From assembly GCA_903821875.1 (NCBI GenBank), contig CAIJMU010000105.1:1-48704 (forward strand): 48,704 nucleotides of DNA. The letters run 5' to 3'. The stretch comes from an uncultured Spirochaetota bacterium. Lineage in GTDB: Bacteria > Spirochaetota > Spirochaetia > Treponematales > Rectinemataceae. Position numbers and translations under genes: made by a program. Position 1 is the first letter of the stretch; each line of letters opens with the position of its first letter. The notes under the pieces were generated by a model. That model was given only the letters and a program-made list of their open reading frames with translations. It did no database searches and was not told where the DNA came from. Positions 5,355 through 47,042 of this stretch are shown one piece after another.

Positions 5355-6734
5355 ATGAGCCTGTACCTCCTGCTTCCCATACTTGCCGTCATCGTGCTTT
5401 TTGCCAACCTCGGGCGGCTCAAGAGCCTTGGATTCCCCCTTGCCGTCTTCGGACTCATCGTCGCAGCCGTGCTGGCAGGCTTCCAGATCGGCCTCGACCA
5501 CCGCCTCCTCAGGGGCATGGCCGAGTTCGACACCTTCGCCTCCGCCTTCAGCCTGCTCGTCATAGTACTGACGATCCTCGTCGTCCTCCTCCTGGGCTCC
5601 CCCTCGGGCAGGACCGAGGTGCCCCGCGCCGAGAAGGCCGCACTTGTCATCTTCTCGCTGACCGGGGCGGTGATGCTTACGAGCTACACCAACCTCGTGA
5701 TGCTCTTCCTCGGGATCGAGATACTGAGCATTCCCGTCTATGTCCTCGTGGGAACGAGGAAGAGCGACGTGAAGGGCAACGAGGCCGCGCTGAAGTACTT
5801 CCTCAACGGCTCCTTCGCCACGGGCATCCTCCTGTTCGGCATCGGTCTAATCTATGCCGGAACCGGACAGTTCTCGCTGGGAGGAATCCTCCTGTGGACC
5901 CAGGCGAATTCAAGCGGCATACATCCCCTCTTCCACCTCGGTCTCCTCTTTATCCTCTTTGGCCTGGCCTTCAAGGTTTCCGCAGCTCCCTTCCATTTCT
6001 GGACTCCCGATGTCTATGAGGGAGCGCCTACCGCGGTGACCGCCTACATGAGCACTGTCGTCAAGATCGCGGCCTTCGCCGCCTTCTTCCGCCTTCTCTA
6101 CCGGGCCTTCCCGATGGCAGCCGAGAGCTGGCTCTGGATCATAGGCCTCCTTGCGGTGCTGACCCTTCTCGTGGGCAATCTCGGTGCGCTGGCCCAGGGC
6201 GGCTTCAAGCGCCTGATGGCCTACTCGGGCATCTCGCACGCCGGCTACCTCCTGATCGCCCTTCTGGCGACCGGTTCCATGGCCATGGGCACTCTCTGGC
6301 TCTACACTGCCGCCTACGCTGCTGCAACCATGATCGCCTTTGTCGCCTGGGCCCGTATCGAGGAGGGTGGGGAAGGGGATGCCATCGCCGCCTTTGCTGG
6401 CCTGCGTTCGCGCTCGCCCTTCCTCGCCTTTGGACTCGCCCTGGCCATGCTCTCCTTGGTCGGCGTGCCCCCATTGGGCGGCTTTTTCGGAAAGCTCTTT
6501 GTCTTCGCGAACGCAGTAGGGCAGGGAAAGATCGCCCTCGTGGTTTTCGCCGTCGTGATGAGCGCGATCGGAATGGTGTATTACCTGCGACCTCTTATCC
6601 AGGCCTGGTTCAATGAGCCCAGGGTCATGGCAAAGCTGCCACTCCGGGCCGCCGAGTTAGCGGTCGTCGGATTCTGCATGCTGGTGCTTGTGGGTCTTGC
6701 GGCTGCTCCGGCCTGGGTGCTCGGGGCCTTCTGA
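5355..6734 (+). CDS. nuoN: NADH-quinone oxidoreductase subunit N (cluster 1)
   Basis: Third antiporter-like subunit, 459 aa, last gene of cluster 1. LFLGIEILSIPVYVLVG has the TM5 glutamate, AFKVSAAPFHFWTPDVYEGAPT has the TM7 lysine, and KRLMAYSGISHAGYLLI has the usual discontinuous-helix region. The stop is followed 27 bases later by a strong intrinsic terminator, which closes the transcription unit before the second nuo cluster. Confidence 0.95.
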   Translation: MSLYLLLPILAVIVLFANLGRLKSLGFPLAVFGLIVAAVLAGFQIGLDHRLLRGMAEFDTFASAFSLLVIVLTILVVLLLGSPSGRTEVPRAEKAALVIFSLTGAVMLTSYTNLVMLFLGIEILSIPVYVLVGTRKSDVKGNEAALKYFLNGSFATGILLFGIGLIYAGTGQFSLGGILLWTQANSSGIHPLFHLGLLFILFGLAFKVSAAPFHFWTPDVYEGAPTAVTAYMSTVVKIAAFAAFFRLLYRAFPMAAESWLWIIGLLAVLTLLVGNLGALAQGGFKRLMAYSGISHAGYLLIALLATGSMAMGTLWLYTAAYAAATMIAFVAWARIEEGGEGDAIAAFAGLRSRSPFLAFGLALAMLSLVGVPPLGGFFGKLFVFANAVGQGKIALVVFAVVMSAIGMVYYLRPLIQAWFNEPRVMAKLPLRAAELAVVGFCMLVLVGLAAAPAWVLGAF

Positions 6735-11960: not shown

Positions 11961-13865
11961 ATGAGCACACTTGCGATAATCCTGACGGTAGCGCCGCTGG
12001 CGGCCTATGCGGTCATCGTATTCTTCACCTCACGCTGGAAGGCTCTCTCCGCGGGCATCGCCATCGCCGCGACGGGGACCTCCCTGGCGCTCTCGATCTG
12101 GCTCCTCCTGGGCATGATCGGCGACCCGACGCCGGTGCATGTCTCGATGAGCTGGCTGTCCATCCCGCACCTGGGCGGCATCAGGGGCCTCGACATCTCC
12201 ATGGGGGTGCTGGTCGACCCGCTCTCGTCCCTGATGATGACAATTGTTTCCTTCGTTGCCTTCCTCGTGATGGTCTACTCCCTGGGCTACATGAAGGGGG
12301 ACGAGGGTTTCTCGAGGTACTTCGCCTACCTCGGGCTCTTCACCTTCTCGATGCTCGGCCTTGTGATAGCCGACAACTATTTCCAGACCTTCGTCTTCTG
12401 GGAGCTGGTGGGGCTTTCCTCCTACCTCCTGATCGGCTTCTGGCGGCTCAAGGACTCGGCGGCCGAGGCCAGCAAGAAGGCCTTCGTGACCAACCGCTGG
12501 GGCGACTTCGGCTTTCTTGTCGGCATCCTCCTCCTGTTCACGATCTTCGGCACCTTCGATTTCGCTGTCCTGGCCAAGGAGATTCCCGCTTATGAGCACC
12601 TGGGCCTCATAGCCCTCATCGCTGTCCTGGTTTTCACCGGCCCCATGGGCAAGTCAGCCCAGGTCCCCTTCCATGTCTGGCTCCCGGACGCCATGGAGGG
12701 CCCGACCCCCGTCTCGGCCCTTATCCATGCCGCGACCATGGTCGCCGCCGGTGTCTACCTCGTGGCCCGCGGCTTCGTGCTCTTCCAGTCCGTGCCCCAG
12801 GTGATGGAGCTCATTGCCTGGATCGGCGGCTTCACCGCGATCTTCGCCGCCCTCATTGCCCTGGTGCAGCGCGACATCAAGCGGATACTGGCCTACTCGA
12901 CGCTCTCGCAGCTCGGCTACATGTTCCTGGCCCTCGGGGCGGGTTCCATGAGCGCGGGCATGTTCCACCTCACGACCCACGCCTTCTTCAAGGCTCTCCT
13001 CTTCCTCGGGGCGGGCTCGGTGATCCACGCCCTCCACGAGCAGGACATCTTCAGGATGGGCGGCCTCTCGAAGAAGATGCCCGTCACCACCTGGACCTTT
13101 GTAATTGGTTCCTTGTCCCTGGCAGGCCTCTTCCCCCTTGCCGGCTTCTGGAGCAAGGACGAGATCCTCCTCGTCGCGCTCAGGGAAGGACAGACTGCCC
13201 TTTTTGTCATCGGCCTGGTCACGGCCTTCCTGACGGCCTTCTACATGTTCCGCCTCATTTTCACCGTGTTTTTCGGGGAGCCCGTTCCCGCTGAACATGG
13301 TCATGGCCATCAGGCCCATGAAAGCCCTGTCTCCATGACCGGGCCCCTCGTACTCCTGGCCCTTCTATCGGTCGTTGCGGGCCTCGTCGGCTCCCCGTGG
13401 TGGCAGGCCTGGTTCGGCTCGTCCTTCGGCTCCTTCATCTTCTTCGGAGAGCCGGAGGCGCCGCATCTCGATCTCGCGGTCGCCCTGCCGGCGACGATCG
13501 TCGCAGTACTGGGTATCGGGATCGCCTGGCTTGTCTATGGGAAGAAGCTTGTCAGGCATGAAGCGCTGGCTGAGCGCTTCCGACCCCTCCACACGCTCCT
13601 TCTCAACAAGTTCTACATCGACGAGTTCTACGCCCTCGTATTCAAGTGGGTGATGATGCTGGGAGGCCGGGTCTTCGACTGGTTCGACCACAGGGTCATC
13701 GATGGAACCTTCGACGGCCTCGGTTCCGCTACCAGGACCTCGGGCGGCAAGCTCAGGCTCCTCCAGACAGGCAGGCTGCAATCCTACGCGCTGGTGCTCT
13801 TCGGCGCGGTGGCTGTGGCAGTCGTACTCGTTTCGACCAACCTGATCGGAGGGTTCGCCAAATGA
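11961..13865 (+). CDS. nuoL: NADH-quinone oxidoreductase subunit L (cluster 2)
   Basis: Antiporter-like proton channel, 634 aa from ATG 11961, which has AGGA upstream at 11951. TFVFWELVGLSSYLLIGFW (TM5 Glu), GKSAQVPFHVWLPDAMEGPTP (TM7 Lys) and ALIHAATMVAAGVYLVAR (His) are all present. A His-rich loop, EHGHGHQAHE near residue 452, is unusual but lies in a variable loop. The C-terminal NKFYIDEFYALVFK and LRLLQTGRLQSYAL show the full lateral-helix region. The nuoM ATG overlaps its last codons. Confidence 0.94.
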   Translation: MSTLAIILTVAPLAAYAVIVFFTSRWKALSAGIAIAATGTSLALSIWLLLGMIGDPTPVHVSMSWLSIPHLGGIRGLDISMGVLVDPLSSLMMTIVSFVAFLVMVYSLGYMKGDEGFSRYFAYLGLFTFSMLGLVIADNYFQTFVFWELVGLSSYLLIGFWRLKDSAAEASKKAFVTNRWGDFGFLVGILLLFTIFGTFDFAVLAKEIPAYEHLGLIALIAVLVFTGPMGKSAQVPFHVWLPDAMEGPTPVSALIHAATMVAAGVYLVARGFVLFQSVPQVMELIAWIGGFTAIFAALIALVQRDIKRILAYSTLSQLGYMFLALGAGSMSAGMFHLTTHAFFKALLFLGAGSVIHALHEQDIFRMGGLSKKMPVTTWTFVIGSLSLAGLFPLAGFWSKDEILLVALREGQTALFVIGLVTAFLTAFYMFRLIFTVFFGEPVPAEHGHGHQAHESPVSMTGPLVLLALLSVVAGLVGSPWWQAWFGSSFGSFIFFGEPEAPHLDLAVALPATIVAVLGIGIAWLVYGKKLVRHEALAERFRPLHTLLLNKFYIDEFYALVFKWVMMLGGRVFDWFDHRVIDGTFDGLGSATRTSGGKLRLLQTGRLQSYALVLFGAVAVAVVLVSTNLIGGFAK

Positions 13866-38455: not shown

Positions 38456-41417
38456 GACCCCGTTCCTTCCTGAGAATCTCGATGAGACGGGCGAGTTTCG
38501 CTGAAACCTTGATGCCGGCTATCTCGACGGGATTCCCCTTGTCGTCGAGCCGCAGGAAGGCTGCATCCTTTGGAAGGTGCGCGGGAAATTCGATTGCGGG
38601 GGGCGGGGAGCGCCGGTCGGTGGGAAGGCGGCGGTCGGATTCCAGGCGCCTCTGCTGCACATCGCTGCGGTCCTTGTCCTCGTGGCGCCGCTCCTGGATT
38701 GTCCGCCGGTCGGATTCCTTGCGGCGGCCAACCTGCGAGCGCCTCGGATCGAGGGGCCGAAGTGGCTGCGGACTCGAAGGAGCCCTCGGGTGGAGGCGGA
38801 GTTCCTCGGCCCTGGCCATGAGTCCCTCATGGCGATCCTCGACCGGTATCCCTTCCCTGGCCTTCTCAAGCTGATCGATGAGATGGTCGAGTCGCTCCTT
38901 GACGCCGCTGATCTCGAATTCGCCATGCATGTCCGAAGGCAGGACTTCGAGGAGATCCTTGAGGTATTCCAGTAGTCCCTTGGTCCGCTCCGCCAATTGA
39001 TGCTTCGTGCCGGGGCCAGGCTCCTGCTGCGCTTCATCGTAGACGCCTGACTCATCCTCGGCGGGCAGGTCCGGGGAGGGCTCTTCCGCCACAACCGCTT
39101 CCTCCGGCAGTAACTCTTCGGCTGGGCTGCCCTCTTCAACAAGTGGCTCCTGAGCAGGCTCTTCCCATGGATCCTCGGCTGCAGCCTCGAGCATTCCGTC
39201 AGGATCCTCGGTAGGTCCATCGACCTCATCCTCTTCGACAAGCAACTCGCCGGCAGGGGCTTCGTCTGGAGGTTCATCATCGGAAGTTTCGGGCTCGTCA
39301 GGTTGCGAGAGCATGTGGTCGACTTCCTCCAAGGGAAGCGTCGGCTCAGGCTCGACCTCAGGCTCAAATTCAGGTTCAGGTTCTAGCTCGATCTCAGCCT
39401 CTAATTCGGGCTCAGGCTCTGGCTCGACCTCAGGTTCAGGCTCTAGCTCGACCTCCGGTTCTAATTCGGGCTCAGGCTCTAGTTCAATCTCAGGTTCAGG
39501 TTCAGGAGGCGGAGGCGGAGGCGGAGGCGGAGGAGGAGCAGGGTGGCTCTCGACCGGGAGCAGGAGCTCCTCTTCCTCTGGCAGGGCCAAGGCATCAAGT
39601 CTTCGCGGCGGTTCCTTATCAAAGTCCTTGAAACCAGGCTCCACTTCCTCCGTAAGCTCATCGCCAAGCTCTTCCGTCCGCTCATCGAGGAAGAGCATCT
39701 CCTCCTCTTCGGGGACCTCGAGGGGATCCATGTGGTTGGCTGAAACAAAGGGCATGAGGAGGGTGTCATCGTCTTGATTGCCGGAAACAGCATCGAGAAT
39801 CGTGGGTTCGGGAGCCCTGCCCCTGGCGAGAGAGTCGCGGAGCACTCCGATGTTTCGATCCATCGCGGATTTCATTCCCGACCCATACTGGCGGACCGCG
39901 TTCTCATATATGCCGATGCCGGAGAGGATCTGATCGACCGAAGCCCCGTCCCCGTGCCCGACGCCGGGATTGGAGCCGCGGATGTTAACGAGGCGTTCGG
40001 CGGCGCTGACAGCCTTCCCGCGCTCGCCGAGCGCGTTCCAGACTGTCGAAAGCTCAAGCTGCACCTCAGGATCGTTTGGTCTCATGACCTCGAGGTCGAG
40101 GAGGGTGGCCTTCGCGCCTTCCCAGTCGCCCTTTTTCTCGCGGGTTCGCGCCAATTCAAGGCGGGCTCGGTTGTCATCGGGCTTGGCGCGCAGGTAATTG
40201 AGCAACTCCGTCTCAGCCCGTTCAAAATCGCCTCGTTCGGATGCGATCCGAGCCAGATCGACACGGAATCCGACCTCATTGGGATCAAGGGAAAGGATTT
40301 TCTCGTAGATCTTCCCTGCGCGCTCCGAATCTCCGAGTCGTTCGATGAGGCCTGCGTAGGGCTTGAGGGCCTTGAGCGCATCGGGCTTACGCCTGAGTAG
40401 CTGCTCGAGAACCTCCTTCGCCTCGGGGTAGCGGCCAAGGTTCTCGAGGAGGGAGGCGAGATGGATGCGAAGGTCGTCATTGTCGGGCATGAGCTCGACG
40501 AGGCGCTCGATCTCCTGGAGGGCCGCGTCCCAACGCCCTGCTTTCTCGAGGACTTCCTCGATGTTGAGGGCGGCGCGGACAAAGCCTGGATCGATTTCGA
40601 GGGCCTGGCGGAACCAGGAGATGGCTTCTTCGGTCCGACCCTCAGCCGAGTGGACAAGGCCAGTGTTGTTTATCGCTTCGATGTTTTTCGGCTCGATGGA
40701 AAGGACCTGTGAGAAGAGGTCGAAGGCTCGCCGGCTCTTGCCAGCACCCAGCAGGGCGACCCCGTAGCGGTTCATCGCCTCGACCCAGCCAGGTCTCCCC
40801 TTCACGGCCTTCTCGTACTCAACGAGGGCCTCCTCGTGCTTGCCGAGGGCGTCAAATGCATAGCCGAGGTTGTAGTGGAAGGAGGGGTAGTTCGGATCGA
40901 CCGCAAGACCCTTCCAATAGATGCGGACCGCCTTTTCTGGGTCACCCATCTGCCGATAGATGCCTCCAAGGTTGTTGTAGGCAAGGACATGTCCCGGATC
41001 GAGCTCGATGGCTTTGGCGAAGGCCATCTCAGCGCCCTTCAGGTTGCCTGTCTGGCGGTAGGAGTTGCCGAGGTTGAACAGGACTTCTGCGTTGCCCGGA
41101 TCAAGGTCCAGTGCCCGTTCGAGGACGCCGATGGCTTCCATGATCTTGCTGAGCCTGAGATAGGCGATGCCCATGTTGAGGAGGGATTCCACATTGTCCG
41201 GTTCGCGGGAGAGGATACTCGTGAAGGCTCCGAGGGCATCCTGGGCCCGGTCAGAGCGGAGGTACACCGTCCCGAGGAGGATGCGGGCATCCATTGAGTC
41301 CGGATTTTCCATCAGGAACTGCCGGGCCAGACGTTCGGCTTCCTCGAAGTCCCGCAGCCGCATGGCGCTTCGCGCCCGGTCAAGAGGCGAGTCGATGGAA
41401 GGCTTGCTCGGACTCAT
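38442..41417 (-). CDS. Large TPR protein with Pro run, Glu-Pro repeat and Arg-rich end
   Basis: 991 aa, no signal peptide, so probably cytoplasmic. About thirteen tetratricopeptide repeats run from residue 10 to 475. A linker follows, then 11 consecutive prolines (628-638) and a Glu-Pro repeat segment (639-692). Next come a strongly acidic region (700-810), a helical stretch (about 820-870), and an Arg-rich segment (892-936) with SDRR/ERRH repeats. The final [26 protein letters not shown] is a short conserved-looking module. TPRs bind protein partners; the acidic stalk and Arg-rich end suggest a scaffold. Start ATG 41417 overlaps the LamG-protein stop (ATGA). Function unknown. Confidence 0.85.
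39340..39540. repeat. Low-complexity DNA repeat coding for Pro and Glu-Pro runs
   Basis: Irregular hexamer-type repeats of the TCAGGCTC and GGAGGC type fill this stretch. On the minus strand they encode the Pro run and the Glu-Pro/Glu-Leu segment of the large TPR protein. Such tracts are prone to length variation by slippage. Confidence 0.75.
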
Positions 41418-43009
41418 GGGGCCGTCCTCGAGGGTCGGGCGGAGACTTCCTGGGAGAATTCTCCGGCCCTGGCCGTTGGATCGCCTCCGGCCACCCTGCG
41501 GGCGGCTGCATCGTACGAGGCTACTGAAAGATAGTATAGCTTCCCGTTCGCCAGCCCGCTCAGGTTTAGTGACAGGTTCTTCCCCGCATCGACGGGACTG
41601 GGTCCTTCGATCGCGTCCTTGCCGAAGTATTCGCCCGGGTGCTCGCCATAGTAGATGAGATAGCCACCCAGATCCTCGACGGGCACTGCTGACCAGCGCA
41701 GCTCAATGCCGCTGTTCTTTACGATCGCCAGGAACTTCGAAGGCGGTGGTGGCGGCGGGTCTGGCTCGAAGCGGAGCGTGATTGCCGACAGGGAGGGTGT
41801 CTGGCTTCCAAGCCCATCGGAGAAAAGCTCGGCCCGCAGCTGCACGAAGCGACCACGGGCGGGATCTGGCAGGCTGGAACCGGAACGGAAGGGTATCCAG
41901 GCGGGGCTGTCGAGCTTCCATCCTGCAGCGTCGTCCGCAATGCGATAGCACAGCTCGATGCCCGTTGAGCCCGGAGTGCGGAAGGCTGCGTCGATGCCGA
42001 TGAGCCGTGAGTTGGTAAAGCCCAGGTCGGCGATCGGCGAGATGACGATGGCCGCTTCGGTCGAGAATGGCGCGAGCTTCGGAGCGGACACGAAGTCCCG
42101 GGTAATGCGGAACTCATCCATGAGGCCCGAGAAGTTGGCTGCGACAAATAAGGGACTGACACCACCTATGGCTGGTTCGAAAACGGTCCCACCCTCGTGA
42201 CCGGTGGATGTCACGTGAGTCATCGCTTCGGGCAGGCCGTTGACCAGATATTCGAGAAGTCCGGAATCGCCGTCGAAGCGAAGCAACTGGTGGGTCCAGA
42301 CCCGGGGGATGAGGGGAGAGCGGGCTTCGAGGTCGATGGAAGTCTCGGCCGGGAAGGGCGTGCCATCACGGGACCTTCCCTCGGGGGCGACAAAGAAGCC
42401 AAAAAAGGACCAGGTGATCTTGCCATGGGAGATGACGCAGGAGAGCTGCTGGGCGAGGGCGTCTTTCCCGGCCTTCCTGATCGACTGCCATTTGAGGAGG
42501 ACCTCGCCGTTTTCGGCATTGGCAGGATAGAGCCAGAACTCGATGGTAAAGTCCCTGAAGCGCGAATCCCGGGAAAGGAGGGCCCGCGGACCGGGATCGA
42601 GTCTCAGCTCGGAATCGGGGCCGTTGAAAGAGGCAGCTGCCGGGCTGAAGCTCGCGCGTTCCCTGTCCACGCCGAAACTACGTCCGACGGTGACGCTCCA
42701 TTCGCCGGCTTCGTCGCTGAGCACAGGATCGTCGAAGTGGAGGAGAAGATCGGTAGTATGTTCGACTGCATAATGCTCGTAGGTGATGGCGTATTCGGGG
42801 GCCCCGCGCCAGCCCCTTCGCAGCGCTGCGCCATCGACGGTCCAGTCGCCAAAACTCGCCGCCCCACGCGGCAAGGCCTGTACAGGAGGCCTGGGTTGGG
42901 CGAGCTGCGTGGGAAGACCGGGGGAAAGGATAATCCTTTCCTCGAGGGCCCGCGCCGGGATTGCAGCGAGCACGAGAAGGGCCAAGGCCCCGATTCCCTT
43001 GAGTTGCAT
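41414..43009 (-). CDS. Exported LamG- and fibronectin-III-domain protein
   Basis: 531 aa. A signal peptide (residues 1-18, [14 protein letters not shown]) predicts export. A LamG/concanavalin-like domain covers about residues 75-300 ([20 protein letters not shown], then [14 protein letters not shown] near 300). Then comes a beta-rich segment, a Pro run (about 424-430) and one Fn3 domain ([20 protein letters not shown]). These are carbohydrate- or protein-binding modules, suggesting a periplasmic or surface adhesin or scaffold. ATG 43009 was chosen because the signal peptide then begins MQLKG; GTG 43021 is in frame. First gene of the six-gene minus-strand run; its start is only 27 bases from divergent uvrC. 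Confidence 0.8.
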
Positions 43010-43031
43010 TCGACCGTACACTACCTATCGT
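43004..43031 (+). promoter_or_regulatory. Possible uvrC promoter, leaderless arrangement
   Basis: TTGCAT (43004-43009) and TATCGT (43026-43031) with a 16-base spacer, ending 5 bases before ATG 43037. The -35 overlaps the start codon of the divergent LamG gene. Weak match. It is listed because the geometry matches the pyrG and 24685 promoters. Confidence 0.35.
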
Positions 43032-43036
43032 CAACT

Positions 43037-45262
43037 ATGGCCGAGAATGAAGCAGTGAGTAAGGGGGGCGAGGAACTCGCCCCTAACCTGGAGGAGCGCG
43101 GCACGCGCTCCGACACCTCCAGGGGCGAGGAACTCGCCCCTAACCTGGAGGAGCGCGGCACGCGCTCCGACACCTCTCAGGGCGAGACTCGCCCCACCAC
43201 CGCACGGGAGCGCAGCGCGCGTTTCCGTGCCCTCGTGCGCGAGGCCCCGGAGGAGCCAGGCGTCTATCTGATGAAGGATGCAGAGGGCCTGGTCATCTAT
43301 GTCGGAAAGGCCAAGGTCCTCCGCAACCGCCTCTCCTCGTATTTCTCCGGCCGCAAGGACGTCAAGACACGCCATCTTGTCGCGCGCATCGAAACCATCG
43401 AGTGGATCATTGCCGCCAGCGAGTATGAGGCCCTTCTCCTCGAAAGTACCCTCATCAAGCGCCTCACACCCCGCTACAACGTCAACCTGAAAGACGGAAA
43501 GACCTACCCAAGCATTCGGATCACCTCGGAAGCCTTCCCCCGTGTCTTTCGTACCCGACGCATCATCGATGATGGGAGCCGCTACTTCGGCCCCTTCCCC
43601 AGTGCTGACCTCATCGATACCTACCTCGACCTCGTCAAACGCCTCTTTCCCCTGCGCCGCTGCGTCAACATGAAGGCCCACAAGGATGTCTGCATGTACT
43701 GGCACATCGGACGCTGCGCGGGGCCTTGCGTCGGAAAGATCACCCGGGAGGAGTACGCTATCCACATCGCGGAGGTCGAGAAGCTCCTGTCCGGCGACAC
43801 CGAAGCCCTTCTGGCCTCCCTTCGTGAGCGCATGGCTGCCGCCGCCGGTTCCCTTAAATTCGAGGAGGCTGCCAGGCTCCGCGACTCACTCCGTGCCATC
43901 GAGGACTTCCGCGGCAAGACAGGCGCTGTCGACAATGACCCTGAAGGACGGGACTACATAGCATGGGCTGCCGATGGCGAGCTCATCACCTTTGCCGTCT
44001 TCCAGATGCGTGGAGGGAGCTTGACCGGCCGCGACCTCTATCGGAGCCGCGTTGCAAGCGCAGAGGACGAGGCCCTCGTCTCCTTCCTCATGAGCTATTA
44101 CGGAAAGGAGCGTCTGCCACCGGCCAAGGTCTTTGTATCAGCGCTGACTGCCGCGCAGGCTGAGGCAGATCAAGCCGCAGAGGCGTCTGGAGTCCCGCTC
44201 CCCTTCTCCGACCTCCCCCTCGTCGAAGCCTGGTTCGAGCGCGAGCTCGGCGTGGCGGCAGCCATCATCACGCCTGCGGGCTTCCACGAAGCGGCAGGCC
44301 CTGACACGGAAGGCCGCGAAAAGCGCCACGCGGCAGCCCTCGCCATGGCCGCTCAGAATGCCCACGAGGACCTCGCCAAGCTGCGGCGCGAGCTTGGCGA
44401 CCCCGCGGCCATCGCGGAATTGAAGTCAGTACTAGGACTTTCGCACGCGCCGGAGCGCATCGAGGGCTTCGACATCGCCCACCTCGAAGGCAGGCACATG
44501 GTCGCCTCGCTGATATCCTTCAAGAACGGCATTCCCGACCGCAAGAACTACCGCAGTTTCAACATCAGGAGCCTGGAGGGGAAGGTGGACGACTTCGCAG
44601 CCATCCGCGAGGCGGTCGCGCGCCGTTACACGCGCCTGGTCAACGAGGACGCGGAGCTGCCCGACCTCGTGCTCGTCGATGGAGGCAGGGGACAGGTTTC
44701 GGCTGCGAAAGAAATCCTCGACGCCCTCGGCCTGGATTGCGACCTGGCGGGGCTGGCCAAGCGCCAGGAGGAAATCTGGCTTCCCGGCCGCAGCGAAGCG
44801 GTGGTCCTGCCCCATGACTCGCCCGCGCTGCGTGTCCTTGTGGCCGTCCGCGACGAAACCCACCGCTTTGCCACAGGCCGAAACCAGCGTCAGCGGGCGG
44901 GCGACCTCAAGTTCGGCCTCCTCGAGGCGGTGGAAGGCGTCGGTCCCGAACGAGCCAAGCGCCTGCTCCGTGTCTTCGGGTCACTGGACCTAATTAAGAA
45001 GGCTTCGGTCGCGGAAATCGCGTCGGCTGGCAAGCTGGGAGCCAAGGTGGCTGAGCGGATCAAGGCAGCGCTCGCTGGACGAGCCGCTGTTGATGCAGGA
45101 CCTGCCGCTGCCGCGCAAGCCTCCGCCGCAGGGGGCGCTGGTGCGAAGCCCGCCGCCGCTCGGGGCAGCGGTCCCAAGCCCGCGCGGCAGGCAGCCGCTC
45201 CCGCGCCTGAAGACGCCGCCACGGGCAACCTGGCAGCGGAACAGGAGCCTGACTACGGATGA
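43037..45262 (+). CDS. uvrC: Excinuclease ABC subunit C
   Basis: Makes the two incisions flanking a lesion in nucleotide excision repair with UvrA/B. 741 aa. The GIY-YIG domain begins GVYLMK (75-80) and IYVGKAK (87-93). A Cys set (RRCVNMKAHKDVCMYWHIGRC...C) follows, then a UVR motif LKFEEAARLRDSLRAIEDFR. The RNase H-like endonuclease has FDIAHLEGRHMVASLISF and VLVDGGRGQ, with a C-terminal HhH (VEGVGPERAKRLLRVFG). The last 60 residues are an Ala/Pro tail. Residues 11-48 are two copies of a 19-aa unit coded by a palindromic repeat, and family homology begins only near residue 60. The true start may be GTG at codon 67; neither start has a Shine-Dalgarno. Confidence 0.94.
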   Translation: MAENEAVSKGGEELAPNLEERGTRSDTSRGEELAPNLEERGTRSDTSQGETRPTTARERSARFRALVREAPEEPGVYLMKDAEGLVIYVGKAKVLRNRLSSYFSGRKDVKTRHLVARIETIEWIIAASEYEALLLESTLIKRLTPRYNVNLKDGKTYPSIRITSEAFPRVFRTRRIIDDGSRYFGPFPSADLIDTYLDLVKRLFPLRRCVNMKAHKDVCMYWHIGRCAGPCVGKITREEYAIHIAEVEKLLSGDTEALLASLRERMAAAAGSLKFEEAARLRDSLRAIEDFRGKTGAVDNDPEGRDYIAWAADGELITFAVFQMRGGSLTGRDLYRSRVASAEDEALVSFLMSYYGKERLPPAKVFVSALTAAQAEADQAAEASGVPLPFSDLPLVEAWFERELGVAAAIITPAGFHEAAGPDTEGREKRHAAALAMAAQNAHEDLAKLRRELGDPAAIAELKSVLGLSHAPERIEGFDIAHLEGRHMVASLISFKNGIPDRKNYRSFNIRSLEGKVDDFAAIREAVARRYTRLVNEDAELPDLVLVDGGRGQVSAAKEILDALGLDCDLAGLAKRQEEIWLPGRSEAVVLPHDSPALRVLVAVRDETHRFATGRNQRQRAGDLKFGLLEAVEGVGPERAKRLLRVFGSLDLIKKASVAEIASAGKLGAKVAERIKAALAGRAAVDAGPAAAAQASAAGGAGAKPAAARGSGPKPARQAAAPAPEDAATGNLAAEQEPDYG
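43068..43194 (+). repeat. Duplicated 57-bp palindromic unit in the uvrC 5' region
   Basis: Two direct copies, starting at 43068 and 43125, are almost identical over 57 bases; a third, truncated copy begins at about 43180. Each full unit contains GGGGCGAG-GAA-CTCGCCCC and GGAGCGCG-GCA-CGCGCTCC hairpins, plus CCTGGAGG/CCTCCAGG at its edges. The length is a multiple of three, so the uvrC frame stays open. Confidence 0.88.
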
Positions 45263-45292
45263 ATTGAGGCCTATTGAGGCCTATTGAGGCCT
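45263..45292. repeat. Three tandem copies of ATTGAGGCCT
   Basis: A perfect 10-bp unit repeated three times fills the whole 28-base gap between the convergent stops of uvrC (45262) and the chemoreceptor (45291). Each unit contains the palindrome AGGCCT. The last copy supplies part of the chemoreceptor stop codon. Confidence 0.9.
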
Positions 45293-47042
45293 AGGGAGCC
45301 CCGACCCTGAAGCGCCCCACCGCCTCAGCGAGCTTCGCGCCGACCTCGAGTCCCTCCCCGCTGAGCGCCGAGATCTCGTCGATGGAGCGGACGATGTCCG
45401 CAGCCCTCTTGGCCACATCGTCCATCGCCGAAGCCGATATCGCCTGGGCTTTTGCGATGTCGTCCTGGGTCTCTCCGATACGCTGGGCTCCGTGGTTCAT
45501 TTCCGCGCTTTCCCTGCGTATCTCCTCGGTCAGGCCGAGAAGTGAGCCGGCGTCCTGCCGCACGCCTCGCCCGCCCTCGGCGAGGGACCGGGTGCTGGCA
45601 GCTATCCCGTCGAAGGCACGCACGAGGCCTGCAACCTCATCCGCGATGCGGGCGAGCGATTCCGAGCTGCCGTTCGAGGCGACGCGCGCGTGGGTAATCC
45701 TGTTGATGATGTCGTTCAAGACAGCCGTGACGATACGAGCGTTCTCCGCGCTCGACTCCGAGAGGTTGCGGATCTCGCCGGCGACGACGGCGAAGCCCTT
45801 GCCCGCCTCGCCTGCATGGGCGGCCTCGATGGCCGCGTTCATCGACAGTAGGTTGGTCTGCGAGGCAATGCCGTTGATCATCGCGATCGCATCCCCGATG
45901 TCGCCGACGCTCTTTTCGATGTCGGATATCTCGGCGTCCACCTCGGCCACCCGCTCCCCGCCGCGTCTGGTCACCTCGAGGAGCGCATTGGCCGCTCCGA
46001 GCTTTTCCATGGTCAGGGTGGCTACGCCTTCGATCGACCCTGACATCTGCCCGATGGCTTCGGTGGCGTGGGCGACCGCTCCGGCCTGCTCTGCAATGCG
46101 CGACGCGAGGTTCCTGAAACCCTCGACGATGGCTGCCGCCGACCTCGAGGCCTCCTGGCTCTGGCCGCTCACCTGTCCTAATTGGTCCTTTGTCGCCCCG
46201 ATGGAATCGCGGGCCGCCGTGACCGAGGCCTTGGCCCTTCCCGCAGCCTGTGCCAGCGACTCCGCGTTGTGCGAACTCAGGCTCTGGAAGCCGCGTATGC
46301 TGAGAACCATCCCGCTGGTCCGCTCCACGAAATCGTTCACGAGGCTGGCGACCTCCCCGACCTCGTCCCGCGATTCGATGTGCACTCGCTTGGTCAGGTC
46401 GCCCTCTCCGTGCGCGATGTCCGCGATGAGGTCGCGCATGCGCCTGAGCGGCGCGATGACCACGAGGCGGAGAAGGAACCACACGAGAAGCGTGAGGAGA
46501 ACCGTCGTGAGGGCAGCCAGCAGGGCCGACTGGACGCGGAAGCGGCTGATGAAGGTATCCGAGTCCTCGGTCGAGATCCTCAGGGTCGCGACCGCGACGA
46601 CCTGCCCGGCCCTGATTCCCTCGTGGCAGGCTACGCAGGATTCGGCGGCGACTAGCGGGCCCGTGACTCGGAGCGTGCGGCCCTTGCCGCTGAGTTCTTC
46701 GAAGGCGACAGCTTCCTTGCCGCTGGCAAAGACCAGCCTTTCAGGACCATCGGGAGCTTCCTGCGCCTTGGTCGTCATGATGGGGAGGGCGAGCACCTTG
46801 AAGCCTGTGATGCCCGGATACTTCTCCAGTGTCTCCTCGAGGGGCGAAACATCGAGGACACCATTGTTCATGGCAAAGGAAAGCGCCTCTATCATGAGGC
46901 GGCTGTCCGTCTCCGCGCGCGTCAGGAGCAGCGAATTCTCCCGTGCGACGAGCTGGGTAGACAGGACCAAGGTCATCATCGCACAGGCGGCCACGACGCC
47001 GAGCACGAGAACGCGCGTGAATTTCCAGGTCAGGCCCTTCAT
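45291..47042 (-). CDS. Methyl-accepting chemotaxis protein with periplasmic CxxCH haem motif
   Basis: 583 aa. The first TM segment is at about 11-31. A periplasmic domain (32-170) contains SCVACHEG, with Cys136, Cys139 and His140 forming a c-type haem-binding site, as in Tll0287-like/DUF3365 sensor domains. A second TM (about 171-197) leads to HAMP (198-245, [15 protein letters not shown]). The signalling domain has the hairpin tip with [20 protein letters not shown]. It should send a signal to CheA/CheW; the ligand may be redox state, O2 or NO. ATG 47042 has AAGGAGG 8 bases upstream, so the longer frame to 47129 is not used. The domain assignment of the haem region is inference from the motif. 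Confidence 0.9.

Follow-up and report, generated by a model that had tools for sequence, protein, structure and literature searches.

The window (the whole 48,704-nt stretch of DNA analyzed) contains a uvrC gene with a complete set of UvrC domains, i.e. GIY-YIG, UVR, RNase H-like and HhH (Pfam). The 5′ part of this gene carries a tandem repeat, detected by TRF as 57 bp × 2.3 across positions 43065-43195 (131 bp), through which the uvrC frame is unbroken (ORF analysis). The gene and its repeats are arranged as follows:

43037-45262, plus strand: uvrC, 741 codons plus stop (ORF, Pfam matches, start codon kept in 10 relatives)
43065-43121, plus strand: 57-bp unit 1, residues 11-29, GEELAPNLEERGTRSDTSR
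43122-43178, plus strand: 57-bp unit 2, residues 30-48, GEELAPNLEERGTRSDTSQ
43179-43235, plus strand: diverged third copy, likely the source of the units, residues 49-67, GETRPTTARERSARFRALV, ending within the first helix of UvrC

An initial sequence-only reading had described two near-perfect 57-bp copies and a truncated third in this region. The two copies were confirmed (55/57 columns identical, 2/57 different), although the first begins at 43065, three bases before the position (43068) originally given as the start of the element. A third copy is indeed present, but it is probably not truncated: although diverged, it seems to have full length and to reach 43235.

The array has the features of an in-frame intragenic tandem repeat: (i) head-to-tail copies, (ii) a unit length that is a multiple of three and (iii) an open frame. 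Since head-to-tail copies of the unit leave four of the six frames open (two of the three on the coding strand), the open frame is unremarkable by itself.

Hairpins within the repeat units

Each unit contains two hairpins, termed A (GGGGCGAG-GAA-CTCGCCCC) and B (GGAGCGCG-GCA-CGCGCTCC, with outer arms CCTGGAGG/CCTCCAGG). Two hairpins per copy had already been noted in the sequence-only reading, and the third copy also folds into two. Their positions are:

43065-43083, plus strand: hairpin A1, 8-bp stem, 3-nt loop
43087-43123, plus strand: hairpin B1, inner 8-bp stem at 43093-43111 plus the outer arms
43122-43140, plus strand: hairpin A2, match to the hairpin A pattern
43150-43168, plus strand: hairpin B2, match to the hairpin B pattern
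43180-43194, plus strand: hairpin A3 of the third copy
43202-43230, plus strand: hairpin B3 of the third copy, its 12-bp stem including G-T/G-U pairs

The window was searched with both patterns on both strands, with up to three mismatches allowed and shuffled windows as control. The hairpin A pattern gave four matches (0.04 expected), all of them in the array, and the hairpin B pattern gave five (0.10 expected), four of them in the array, both strands being counted in each case. Folding of a single unit yielded z-scores of −5.84 as DNA and −6.15 as RNA, and a fold as strong as that of one unit was reached by a fraction of 0.0006 of 5,000 57-nt coding windows from the same genome. The z-score for the first 179 nt of uvrC was −6.68.

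The third copy has a predicted folding energy of −31.9 kcal/mol as RNA, compared to −34.0 kcal/mol for the unit, and of −17.5 kcal/mol as DNA, compared to −21.2 and −20.6 kcal/mol for the two units. A fold as strong as that of the third copy occurs in only 0.1% of coding windows. The units therefore gain little stability over this copy, whose fold as RNA is almost as strong as theirs. The presence of strong folds in both the putative source and its copies, despite their divergence, could reflect selection for structure.

The uvrC start codon and the N-terminal extension

The spacing between a TATCGT box and the ATG at 43037 is preserved in 10 of the 29 relatives. All 10 belong to the same family, and in most of them similar codons follow the matching ATG. 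The ATG at 43037 is therefore likely to be the uvrC start, and the N-terminal residues conserved at the start are MAENEA. As the array begins 28 nt downstream of this codon, it is translated, and the earlier suggestion of a hairpin array in an untranslated leader was rejected.

An alignment of 31 sequences was used to model the structure of UvrC (mean pLDDT 80.0, pTM 0.51). Residues 5-50 have a pLDDT below 50 in this model, and the first helix is formed by residues 56-68. The 38-residue extension is predicted to be disordered and is probably neutral. The C-terminal tail of the protein is also encoded by a low-complexity repeat (45116-45191; 30 bp × 2.6, TRF), and residues 690-741 are predicted to be disordered by the structure model. 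A perfect 10-bp repeat, ATTGAGGCCT × 3.1 (45263-45293, TRF), is located immediately 3′ of the uvrC stop codon.

Upstream of uvrC, a divergent gene (41414-43021, minus strand) encodes a protein of 535 residues that matches Laminin_G_3 (Pfam). Its start is GTG 43021 or ATG 43009, and it adjoins the uvrC promoter region. Between the two genes lies a box, CGTACATTnATTATCGTACnnTATG (43015-43039), that is common to the 10 family members and slightly altered in the window. This box looks like a promoter that serves both genes, from which uvrC would be transcribed as a leaderless mRNA.

A leaderless uvrC mRNA, if such it is, would fit an explanation in which the hairpins near the 5′ end of the coding region are selected as RNA structures that tune translation or stability of the message; the great strength of the fold across the first 179 nt and the formation of two hairpins by the source and by each copy point the same way. 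Against this, folding of 75-nt segments from the corresponding site of 29 relatives gave z-scores of −2.02 to 2.39 (two below −2), i.e. no RNA structure is conserved at the site, and a conserved RNA element in the uvrC genes of these relatives was rejected. We consider a selected array very unlikely.

Distribution of the array among relatives

UvrC was found in 38 of the 39 genomes searched (own genome included). Of the 37 matching genomes besides the own one, 29 were used for reading the N-terminal region. The 57-bp array is absent from this region in all 29; the repeats that TRF detected there, in five genomes, are all short (9 to 15 bp). The N-terminal stretch of UvrC varies in both length and sequence among the relatives.

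The sole other genome of the genus compared (G001) contains an empty site. Its positions 5472-5514 and 5509-5721 match window positions 43037-43081 and 43188-43400, respectively; these two matches are adjacent, slightly overlapping, and no array separates them. As judged from these comparisons, the array is an in-frame gain of approximately 38 codons in the present lineage, ahead of the GIY-YIG domain, in agreement with the open frame and the roughly 38 added residues noted previously. An in-frame gain in a gene whose relatives lack the insertion is a feature shared with the palindromic elements of Rickettsia.

The array might instead owe its second unit, or its whole existence, to faulty assembly of the metagenome bin. 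The genome is in 193 contigs, so that a wrong copy number is possible, yet the array is short, its units differ at two positions and it preserves the frame of a complete gene, all of which make an artefact highly improbable.

Search for other copies of the unit

The sequence-only reading had likened the array to dispersed palindromic elements that insert in frame into genes, as in Rickettsia. Other copies were sought by several methods. In the own 4.68-Mb assembly, blastn (E ≤ 10) returned 17 other matches, all with E values of 0.285 or worse and no longer than 38 nt. A covariance model of the unit, with 150 of 182 candidates scored, recovered from the own genome both units, a match that mirrors the array on the antisense strand and a single further match with an E value of 0.84. 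A six-frame search with the unit peptide gave no second match in the own genome, and outside uvrC no match below E 0.59 was obtained in 10 genomes. A scan of genome contigs for exact patterns yielded no matches, a weak result given the strictness of the pattern and the possibility that the own genome was outside the set scanned.

When the search was extended to 390 genomes of the order (at most two candidates scored per genome), matches at E ≤ 0.05 were found in 17 genomes including the own one, i.e. in 16 of the 389 others, and about 19 would be expected by chance. The best covariance matches in relatives were those in G017 (E 8.2e-4) and G010 (E 0.0065, 0.0070 and 0.0113), scoring 31.8 to 26.2 bits compared to 92.3 and 89.5 bits for the units. 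Two of the three G010 matches sit at the end of one contig (C19).

A dispersed palindromic element was therefore rejected, since no second locus was found in the own assembly and the number of weak matches across the order is close to that expected by chance. Absence of another copy from the genome was one of two observations named in advance as contrary to that proposal; the other, the same extension in all relatives, was not made. Nor did blastn and the covariance model find in the own genome the dispersed copies expected of a MITE or REP; inverted repeats are present in the array, and a target-site duplication would be indistinguishable from the tandem repeat. The array was also not assigned to PARCEL, as its unit has 19 rather than 25 residues and UvrC has no DUF285-type Pfam match.

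It is conceivable that a mobile palindromic element of the Rickettsia kind entered uvrC in frame and was then duplicated, its other copies having been lost or left unassembled. The array is palindromic, in frame and absent from relatives, and the few covariance matches below E 0.02 in G017 and G010 are consistent with such an origin. We nevertheless regard it as quite unlikely in view of (i) the lack of a second copy in the own genome, (ii) the low bit score of the best match elsewhere, (iii) the chance-level number of weak matches in the order and (iv) the resemblance of the unit to the codons of uvrC that follow it.

Similarity of the units to the adjacent uvrC codons

This resemblance was examined at the nucleotide and codon levels. 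Local alignment of unit 1 to positions 43179-43260 gave a score of 36, reached by a fraction of 5e-5 of 20,000 random windows drawn from a sample of the own genome (773,472 bases, comprising the window and 38 other stretches). The gapped alignment requires gaps of 2, 2 and 1 nt. Read as codons, the units and the third copy both have 19 codons, GEELAPNLEERGTRSDTS(R/Q) and GETRPTTARERSARFRALV, respectively.

In register, over codons 8-19 (past hairpin A), the unit and the third copy share 19 of 36 bases, and 13 of the 17 differences are transitions. Compared with 300,000 in-frame coding windows, identity alone has a p value of 0.004, and identity together with transitions one of 3e-5 (1.3e-5 and 5e-5 for two other cuts). 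Hairpin B alone, treated as a free local match to the neighboring sequence, gave a weaker p value (0.0048). Continuing in register, the third copy leads into the first helix of UvrC, which is conserved. Residues like ARFRAL, just ahead of the GIY-YIG domain, recur in relatives without units 1 and 2, which indicates that the third copy is the older one.

The in-register likeness to the third copy suggests that the units are most likely duplicates of uvrC's own codons. The array would then be an in-frame tandem duplication of the N-terminal codons of the gene, involving no inserted foreign element; we consider this the probable explanation, though with appreciable room for doubt. Alternatively, the palindromes could have been made de novo on site, by template switching or fold-back synthesis at the palindrome GGGGCGAGACTCGCCCC, in which case the hairpin B half would not come from uvrC codons and its likeness to them would be due to chance. 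Hairpin A is plain in the third copy and hairpin B is only weakly like its neighbor, in favor of such an origin; the in-register likeness with its preponderance of transitions speaks against it, and we judge it unlikely.

Proposed origin of the array and its hairpins

With duplication of uvrC's own codons as the preferred origin, the array may have arisen in four steps. The alignment and the relatives suggest an ancestor with a single quasi-palindromic copy, corresponding to the present third copy, whose end lay within the first, conserved helix of UvrC. Tandem duplication of these 57 bp, a length divisible by three, probably through slippage at a hairpin, would have set a spare copy between the MAENEA start and the helix. 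This spare copy would then have diverged, mainly by transitions, while its hairpin stems became perfect; the simplest known process for such a change is template switching between the arms of the palindrome, for which the test described below is a weak one. The last step, a second and recent duplication that produced units 1 and 2, is shown by their near identity (55/57). The end product is a complete UvrC with a 38-residue extension that is predicted to be disordered.

Hairpin B of the unit differs from that of the third copy at 4 of 19 bases, all by transitions. Three of these four changes fall in the stem, and each turns a G-T or mismatched pair into a Watson-Crick pair. Among the four-transition changes of the 19-mer of the third copy, 24 of 3,876 yield all eight Watson-Crick pairs, in a test that was post hoc and whose ancestor is uncertain. 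When 25 random changes were introduced into the third copy, the mutants had a mean folding energy of −13.8 kcal/mol, and a fraction of 0.0002 of 5,000 reached the value of the unit (−34.0 kcal/mol). In this weak, post hoc comparison the stem changes fit copying from the opposite arm, but selection for structure would look alike.

Template switching is reported to create or perfect hairpins generally (PMC8794818) and to do so in yeast coding DNA (PMC8604942). The uvrC differences are like the template-switch mutations described there in raising the pairing of quasi-palindrome arms in coding DNA; they differ in being joined with a tandem duplication (PMC8794818, PMC8604942).

A translated palindromic repeat may thus have been born beside its parent, with template switching between arms perfecting the hairpins of the daughters, so that coding palindromes could arise without a mobile element. 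We put this forward as a tentative possibility, itself rather doubtful.

Comparison with known systems

In Borg elements, disordered regions are created by amino-acid tandem repeats that are in frame, and flanking partial repeats and some hairpin-forming units are reported as well (PMC9879509). The uvrC array is similar in its unit length divisible by three, its location in an ORF, its recent origin and its product, predicted to be disordered. Unlike the Borg repeats portrayed there, it is a single array in a bacterial DNA-repair gene, its unit is GC-rich and palindromic rather than A-enriched, and the copy that flanks it belongs, in diverged form, to the gene (PMC9879509). Rickettsia palindromic elements are likewise palindromic, translated and in frame within housekeeping genes; however, they are about 150 bp long and dispersed, whereas the uvrC unit is 57 bp long, tandem, confined to one locus and similar to the gene's own codons (PMC10969869). 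PARCEL also consists of tandem, palindromic, translated repeats, which are 25-residue repeats of the DUF285 type, whereas the 19-residue uvrC unit is not spread in the genome (PMC2996958). Judging by titles, no paper was found on a tandem repeat or N-terminal extension of this kind in uvrC/UvrC.

Overall, the uvrC array is most likely a lineage-specific in-frame tandem duplication of hairpin-rich codons that was later re-duplicated, adding a putatively disordered extension. The case is a modest one, and known processes account for most of it, namely in-frame disorder-making repeats (PMC9879509) and the switching of templates at quasi-palindromes.

What stands out mildly is that a GC-rich coding palindrome in a DNA-repair gene still lies next to its likely parent. 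Coding palindromes are usually attributed to selfish elements. Here the source copy apparently adjoins the repeats, and the origin is therefore directly testable. The case points to local duplication combined with hairpin chemistry as a route to new disordered protein ends, and it cautions in annotation that an in-frame palindrome need not be a mobile element.

Other tandem arrays and hairpins in the genome

The 773,472-base sample of the own genome contains 15 tandem arrays with a period of at least 20 and a match of at least 85%. Two of these (the uvrC array and one on contig C54) surpass every one of 300 doubled random n-mers in folding, and the median rank is 0.23. There are 185 perfect hairpins with stems of at least 8 in the sample, compared to 107 in one shuffle; among the longest, many are located outside open frames, where they could act as terminators. 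No multi-copy family of short palindromes emerged when the sample was compared with itself by all-against-all blastn.

The C54 array (12381-12474) is a hairpin-rich tandem repeat of 33 bp in 2.8 copies, in frame at the 3′ end of a gene. It encodes an 11-residue repeat (GAASVGATSNS-like) just ahead of the stop codon of a 182-residue protein. Matches to this protein were found in 9 of 10 other genomes, ending at residues 148-172, and seven of the eight matches listed with detail contain a stop inside. From these matches, we would guess that the repeat tail is special to the present genome. A second hairpin-rich in-frame array, here at a C-terminal end, hints that the process is general in this genome.

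Overlapping tandem repeats (TRF) were also detected at 39343-39538 of the window, where they encode an acidic proline-rich stretch of a 991-residue TPR protein.
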